Below, one piece after another: positions 31,841 through 32,551 of a stretch of 64,000 nt of DNA; position 1 is the stretch's first letter, and each line of letters starts with the position of its first letter. Location of the stretch: NCBI GenBank assembly GCA_020073385.1, contig JAIQFH010000007.1, forward strand, positions 118,064 through 182,063, given 5' to 3'. A model generated the notes under the pieces. The model had not been told where the DNA came from. It ran no database searches and saw only the letters and a program-made list of their open reading frames with translations. This DNA is from Terriglobia bacterium (lineage in GTDB: Bacteria; Acidobacteriota; Terriglobia; Terriglobales; Acidobacteriaceae). Position numbers and translations under genes: made by a program.

Positions 31841-32551
31841 ATGCCCATGCGTAAGTTTCTTCCGCGCGCGGCCATTGTCCTGGCAATCCTCTACGCTCTT
31901 TTTGTGGGACTCATCTGGTGGGCGATGCGTCAGCCTCCGGAAACATTCGGCCGGGTCATGAAGCATATGCCGGATGTAGCGTACTTCCTGGTCCCGTTTG
32001 AGACCATGTGGACACACGCCCGCGCAGGACATTTGCAGGCTGGCGACCCCGCGCCAGATTTCTCTCTGACGAAGCTGGATAAGTCCGCTACCGTACAACT
32101 TTCTGCGCTCACAGCAACGGAACCGGTCGTGCTCGTCTTCGGCAGCTACACTTGACCACCATTCCGGCGGGAGGTTCCCGCGCTCGACAAGCTTTACGAC
32201 CAATACAACCAGCAGGTCTCGTTCCTGATTGTCTACATTGTGGAGGCGCATCCCAGCGACGTGTGGCAAACCGAGAGCAATCTGAAGGACAAAGTCGTTT
32301 TCGCCAGCCCGCGTGATTACGACGAACGCAGCCAGGTGGCGGGATCTTGCGTGCGGAAACTCGGAATCAAGTTTCCAGCCGTGATCGACGGATTCGACAA
32401 CACGACTGAGAGCGCCTATACCGGATGGCCGGACCGCATCTACCTGATCGATCGAAACAATCGGGTGGCCTATAAGAGCAAGCCCGGCCCGTTCGGATTC
32501 AAACCGGACGACCTGGAAAAAGCACTGAAGAAGATTACGGCAAGCAGCTAA
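31841..32551 (+). CDS. Iodothyronine deiodinase-like selenoprotein (in-frame TGA = Sec105)
   Basis: One frame of 236 codons is interrupted only by TGA at 32153-32155. An N-terminal membrane anchor (about 10-30, AAIVLAILYALFVGLIWWAM) is followed by GDPAPDFSLTKLDKSATVQLSAL, typical of thioredoxin-fold redoxins. The active site FGSYT-[TGA]-PPFRREVPALDKLY corresponds to the FGSxT-Sec-PPF of deiodinases. Downstream, FLIVYIVEAHPSDVW (family Glu/His) and AYTGWPDRIYLIDRNN are conserved. Known eukaryotic members remove iodine from thyroid hormones; the bacterial substrate is unknown, and peroxide or other dehalogenation roles are possible. A SECIS-like hairpin follows the TGA. The gene is divergent from the propeller operon, and its stop overlaps the ilvD stop. 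The alternative, a nonsense mutation in a Cys protein, is less likely given the intact downstream frame. Confidence 0.9.
32153..32155 (+). other. Selenocysteine codon (TGA recoded)
   Basis: TGA sits exactly at the redox-active position of the deiodinase-like active site (GSYT-x-PPF). All codons before and after it for the full 236-codon frame are sense. Confidence 0.88.
32165..32183 (+). promoter_or_regulatory. Candidate bacterial SECIS element
   Basis: Stem GCGGGA (32167-32172) / UCCCGC (32176-32181) with apical loop GGU. The loop guanines lie 18-19 nt after the TGA, within the 16-37-nt distance of published bacterial SECIS models, which require a G at the start of the apical loop. The mRNA would be bound here by SelB. 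Confidence 0.75.

Follow-up and report, generated by a model that had tools for sequence, protein, structure and literature searches.

A gene that belongs to the iodothyronine deiodinase family, whose animal members take iodine off thyroid hormone, and is interrupted by a single in-frame TGA was observed in a 64,000-nucleotide stretch of a Terriglobia bacterium of the Acidobacteriota (assembly GCA_020073385.1, contig JAIQFH010000007.1, positions 118,064 to 182,063, forward strand; hereafter the window), and this TGA is almost certainly decoded as selenocysteine (Sec). With good confidence for the explanation as a whole, the product is predicted to be a membrane-anchored PF00837 selenoprotein with Sec at residue 105, which would perform selenolate chemistry on a small substrate. 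The gene and its codon are placed as follows:

31841..32551, plus strand: deiodinase-family gene of 236 residues followed by TAA, read through one TGA (translation, Pfam; alternative start at 31847)
32153..32155, plus strand: in-frame TGA, predicted selenocysteine codon 105 (translation, relatives)

The plus-strand frame of 31841-32551 contains no stop besides TGA codon 105, and its translation agrees with the 236 codons and lone TGA described in a first-pass annotation of the window, which had also predicted that gene finding would split the gene, as indeed happens in the list of open reading frames (ORFs), where only two pieces, 31841-32155 (104 aa) and 32240-32551 (103 aa), appear. Translation may in fact begin at the second ATG (31847), because relatives P0002 and P0003 begin at MRK; both candidate ATGs are found in L027, a locus from a metagenome-assembled genome of Acidobacteria gp1 whose protein is 94% identical to the window protein and which has flanking genes in common with the window. 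Between these two genes, the non-synonymous (dN) and synonymous (dS) divergences are 0.033 and 0.486 before the TGA and 0.022 and 0.537 after it, so that both sides are under coding constraint (low dN, higher dS). Across the 60 loci compared (the window's own, L001, and L027-L085), the catalytic column, read with a pattern that admits only Sec or Cys, holds TGA in 27 and Cys in 32, with L075 missed by the pattern. A pseudogene, whether from sequencing error or disabling mutation, would likewise present a lone in-frame stop and two pieces in the ORF list, but this reading is very improbable and was set aside, as the TGA occupies the same column in 27 loci, every inner stop among the 51 phylum matches listed is TGA, constraint acts on both sides, the Sec machinery is complete and the downstream hairpin covaries. 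No stop interrupts the overlapping minus-strand frame 31835-32647 (270 aa) anywhere in this region, and related antisense frames occur at 14 other loci; that this frame is a real gene is extremely improbable and was set aside too, since it has no Pfam match at E 1 and the strong homologs and codon constraint belong to the sense strand.

The first-pass annotation had made its proposal depend on the presence of selA, selB, selD and tRNA-Sec, and all four were detected in the genome (8.23 Mb, 140 contigs): tRNA-Sec at 68.4 bits (ARAGORN tRNA-SeC, tca), selA at 446 bits, selB at 364 bits on the same contig as the window (C17), about 26 kb before it, and selD on contig C20 (25348-26358, minus strand). 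This machinery, the TGA in the same column of relatives and the hairpin downstream agree with its reading of codon 105 as Sec. Decoding of TGA as Trp or another residue would be in keeping with the rarity of TGA among the stops of the 32 long ORFs of the window (TAG 19, TAA 8, TGA 5). Spurious antisense frames probably make up part of this set, and two of the ORFs that end in TGA have no Pfam match. Such decoding would also be in keeping with the gene-called proteins P0001-P0121 (query included, C for U), whose catalytic place reads TWPPF in 50 and TCPPF in 58, with R in three and G in one. TGA is nevertheless a working stop here, as recA in the window ends in it, Cys fills the catalytic column of the 32 loci noted above, and the W entries, such as P0002 and P0003, whose contigs measure about 1 kb, are taken as gene calls made with a TGA=Trp code, their W standing for TGA; the reading is thus as improbable as the antisense gene and was set aside on the recA stop and the Cys loci. 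The selD frame also carries a TGA near its N-terminus, in the stretch AAGUASK, which presumably sits at the catalytic place, and selD is probably a selenoprotein itself. Immediately next to the tRNA-Sec gene is one for a tyrosine recombinase (Phage_integrase, 38.1 bits; 1497-1594 and 1603-2745 of L002, contig C16), as if selC served as an integration site.

Shortly after the UGA, a hairpin of the bacterial selenocysteine insertion sequence (SECIS) kind was observed:

32167..32181, plus strand: predicted SECIS hairpin of bacterial type, GCGGGA-GGU-UCCCGC, with its loop (32173-32175) separated from the UGA by 17 nt

The bacterial SECIS rules in the Fig. 2 legend of PMC13188914 ask for a loop of 3-9 nt, a stem of 4-16 bp, G in the first two loop places, a spacing of 16-37 nt and an energy of -7.5 kcal/mol or lower, and the window hairpin satisfies them (loop 3 nt, GGU; stem 6 bp; spacing 17 nt; -8.9 kcal/mol), as do the hairpins of 15 of the 27 UGA loci against one of the 32 Cys loci. 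Pairing in fixed columns was found in 117 of 162 cells of the UGA loci and 79 of 192 cells of the Cys loci, and none of 1000 synonymous recodings reached the value of the UGA loci. In a pair count over 17 of the 27 UGA loci, which were chosen by register and give 13 distinct rows, pairing in the stem reaches 96.2%, a figure biased upward because ten UGA loci with the hairpin in another register or not fitting (L057-L063, L066, L069, L081) were left out; these ten do count in the rule tally above and the looser tally below. Changes on both sides were observed at five of the six pairs, and stem covariation over the 13 rows is 0.656 against a shuffled mean of 0.137, with 0 of 500 shuffles reaching it. 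The loci are mutually related, so these numbers do not represent independent events. Rfam at gathering thresholds gave no match in the window, and the case for the SECIS element, a likely one, is made by position, loop and comparison.

The family is spread through the phylum. Among 396 genomes (the window's own included), a match reaches E <=0.001 in 38 and the cut-off in 30; each of the 16 strongest matches carries one TGA, and 30 of the 51 matches listed hold one inner stop. Of the 30 named loci, 27 have titles read as Acidobacteriota, while the other three, titled Opitutus, Rhodospirillaceae and Planctomycetia, are all Cys forms. selA and selB were searched in 50 of the 396 genomes, comprising 24 that have the TGA form, six that have only Cys forms and 20 from the same family that lack a match (G140, a weak TGA match, lies outside this sample). 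selB is over the cut-off in 23 of the 24 TGA-form genomes, the remaining one (G242) giving 209 bits with a stop inside, and selA was detected at 1e-30 in 22 of the 24; both genes are present in three of the 20 genomes without a deiodinase match. In a third homolog search, 86 of the 116 newly returned proteins are 142 aa or shorter, and for 86 of the 89 in the set P0269-P0357 the start lies no more than about 45 residues ahead of the EAH motif, as expected of gene calls begun after the UGA. Gene callers thus likely cut the family in two, and because of the in-frame TGA many relatives are likely in databases only as fragments, making this an example of such a family.

The deiodinase assignment of the first-pass annotation was borne out by the search it had proposed, in which PF00837 (T4_deiodinase) matched residues 40-231, across the TGA, with 110.2 bits against a cut-off of 27. 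In sequence matches to the PDB, Dio3 (E 4.9e-22) and Dio2 (E 6.1e-21) were found, and codon 105 aligns with their Sec place, mutated to Cys in those structures. The predicted fold includes the deiodinase insertion as in solved Dio2 and Dio3. The window protein has in common with animal Dio1, Dio2 and Dio3 the motifs FGSxT-U-P-x-F, EAHxSDxW and GPxxY/F, a thioredoxin/peroxiredoxin fold, the insertion and an N-terminal membrane helix, and it differs from them in three to four extra residues in loop D and in an in-frame SECIS of bacterial type. The thiol enzymes ResA/TlpA and Bcp/AhpE share the fold; ResA has a membrane-anchored thioredoxin-like layout, and these enzymes lack the deiodinase insertion and carry CxxC or peroxidatic Cys motifs. 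NCBIfam already holds a deiodinase-related family, NF038285 (deiodinase_rel, model length 347), the C-terminal part of which matches residues 67-229 with 198.6 bits, under its cut-off of 250, and what this model describes may be the longer Cys proteins that carry TPR-like repeats. Cys-type deiodinase-like domains (CPNF, CPNL or CPKL) were observed in long proteins of L031-L033, L036, L037, L042, L044 and L072, near the C-terminus or, in L032, mid-way, with TPR-like repeats recognized by eye.

31871..31927, plus strand: predicted membrane helix of residues 11-29 (19 residues, mean hydropathy 2.39; the structure model has a helix at 6-29)

Hydropathy and the structure model both give this one helix, in line with the membrane anchor seen in the first-pass annotation, and the protein would be anchored by it in the cytoplasmic membrane. 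The thioredoxin/peroxiredoxin-fold domain likely faces the periplasm, an unsure placement taken solely from the basic residues that precede the helix. The active-site features of this domain are:

32138..32164, plus strand: active-site motif FGSYT-U-PPF, residues 100-108 (translation, alignment)
32243..32260, plus strand: EAHPSD, residues 135-140, opening the deiodinase-specific insertion; E135 and H137 match Glu160 and His162 of the relay proposed for mouse Dio2
32348..32350, plus strand: Cys170, candidate resolving Cys, invariant in the 55-row alignment
32486..32500, plus strand: GPFGF, residues 216-220, C-terminal motif answering to animal GPxxY (alignment)

For mouse Dio2, a proton relay of Ser127, Thr129, Tyr157, Glu160, His162 and His182 beside the Sec has been proposed (PMC11592359), and five of the six have counterparts in the window protein (Ser102, Thr104, Tyr132, Glu135, His137), all invariant in the 55 aligned rows. 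In human DIO1, the proximal Cys, which stands two residues ahead of Sec, serves re-reduction (PMC9141512); this place, Cys in Dio1 and Dio3, is Tyr103 in the window protein, and the proximal Cys is carried by L062, L066 and L069 (FGSCT-U-PPF). Because it is invariant in the 55 rows, Cys170 is likely the resolving Cys of the window subgroup. The candidate resolving Cys seems to move within the family, from loop D in L057-L060 to two residues before Sec in L062, L066 and L069 and to Cys170 in the window clade. Arg275 of Dio3, which has been proposed to clamp the substrate, corresponds to Pro215; this is no decisive mark against iodothyronines, because Dio1 also lacks Arg there, having Ala, Ser or Pro (PMC11592359).

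A catalytic course can be proposed from the kept residues and Cys170. The UGA would be read as Sec105 by the organism's own tRNA-Sec, SelA, SelB and SelD, aided by the likely SECIS hairpin; the selenolate of Sec105, kept in place by Thr104 and by a network of Ser102/Tyr132/Glu135/His137, would attack an electrophilic atom of a small substrate, either the halogen of a halogenated phenolic or otherwise a peroxide oxygen, and the same network would deliver the product proton. The selenenyl intermediate would then be resolved by a thiol, probably Cys170, with reduction by a thioredoxin-type or low-molecular thiol donor. A halogenated phenolic is our first guess for the substrate, at somewhat below an even chance, because the protein retains the insertion responsible for the shape of the deiodinase pocket; iodothyronines themselves are unlikely, as bacteria are not expected to make them (PMC1088965). 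Alternatively, the selenoprotein may perform ordinary thiol or peroxide redox, as a peroxiredoxin-like or ResA-like reductase, and not dehalogenation, which for all variants together stands just short of an even chance. Redoxin (45.9 bits) and AhpC-TSA (41.5 bits) also match the protein, the structures that follow closely after the deiodinases are of thiol-disulfide, Bcp and AhpE enzymes, many relatives combine Cys with the same PPF motif, and a redox function was suggested for the bacterial forms in PMC1088965. Against it, the protein retains the deiodinase insertion together with the EAHPSDxW that opens it, and in the structure comparison Dio2 and Dio3 rank about 4 Z units above every other chain among those listed. 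Peroxide or disulfide reduction and a halogenated phenolic are regarded as equally weighty. Should organohalogens prove to be its substrates, the enzyme would reveal the purpose of deiodinase chemistry before there was thyroid hormone and offer a small bacterial model for exchanging Sec, the proton relay and the resolving Cys.

Several observations weigh against the selenoprotein explanation or parts of it. Twelve of the 27 UGA loci fail the strict SECIS rules, ten of them on the energy limit, and L057 and L061 have no hairpin by the rules, L061 having one of 7 bp with its loop one base too near. A looser count of stems of at least 6 bp anywhere near gives a weaker contrast (22 of 27 UGA loci against 11 of 32 Cys loci), and for the 48 nt that begin with the UGA, single-sequence folding gave a stability no higher than that of shuffled sequences (z -0.21); since folding energy thus gave no support, the comparison of relatives was used. 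All six Cys-only genomes tested have selA and selB, so the Sec machinery is not specific to the deiodinase-like gene. In the active site, the sixth relay residue (His182 of mouse Dio2, His219 of mouse Dio3) is replaced by Pro157, a column that holds Pro in 16 of the 18 aligned bacterial UGA forms, Thr in L065 and Ala in L068, so that the relay is not full. The distal Cys conserved in Dio1-3 falls on Phe178, eight residues after Cys170, and Cys170 is absent from the more distant UGA forms L057-L062, L066 and L069. Among the 21 loci compared for gene neighbourhood, many with short flanks, no neighbour is widely conserved, and the annotated neighbours (two in the window, two in relatives) give no pointer to halogen chemistry.

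Sec and Cys deiodinase-like proteins with bacterial SECIS were reported from the Sargasso Sea in 2005 (PMC1088965), and the bacterial family is listed in a metagenome paper on the Global Ocean Sampling (PMC2398784) and in two reviews (PMC9312934, PMC13188914), so the novelty suggested by the first-pass annotation was overstated. The window protein shares PF00837, Sec and Cys forms and the bacterial SECIS with these known proteins. It differs in motif: the reviews give UxxC for the family, whereas the form in the window protein and in most UGA relatives is UPPF, which lacks the Cys of that motif and may already stand in the 2005 alignment; L084 is of the UxxC kind (UPYC). The term 'acidobacteri' is absent from the main text of these two reviews, to which the term search was confined. 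A 2006 survey (PMC1794560) gives four selenoproteins of three families in Acidobacteria, and 'deiodinase' is absent from its main text. A literature search pairing 'iodothyronine deiodinase' with 'acidobacteria' found no paper, and related searches gave none by title or abstract start. What is new is a family member with a well-supported SECIS in a taxon not named in the review texts searched; the kind was already known.

In a 68-row tree of the family, the 11 rows taken as eukaryotic, three of which (P0129, P0229, P0241) are environmental proteins, form one clade (100/100), and the rows so taken in an 86-row tree do likewise (100/100). The 68-row tree, built without L043-L046, L048, L049, L054-L056 and L083 and with L075 missed by the pattern, places this clade as sister to the acidobacterial UGA forms L057-L062, L066 and L069 (95/84), and its grouping with the window clade instead was not rejected (approximately unbiased test, AU, p 0.073). 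The 86-row tree, also without L052, L053, L070, L081 and L085, leaves its attachment inside bacteria unresolved, and with these two results no bacterial attachment point of the animal deiodinases is claimed. A wider scenario, which we consider unlikely, is that soil Acidobacteria hold a broad, mostly mis-annotated selenoenzyme family with the exact animal active site (FGSxT-U-PPF, in some FGSCT-U-PPF) that dehalogenates natural organohalogens in the periplasm, and that the thyroid-hormone deiodinases of animals were recruited from this pool.

Upstream of the gene, on the minus strand, 28479-30539 and 30555-31739 encode a Big_2/LVIVD-repeat protein and a lactonase-like beta-propeller, and within the 21 loci these two neighbours recur only in L027. 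Three downstream genes, ilvD, ilvB and ilvC by eye, are common only to the window, L027 and L030. Both L028 and L086 have a gene for a TonB-type outer-membrane protein upstream, which was judged to be incidental.
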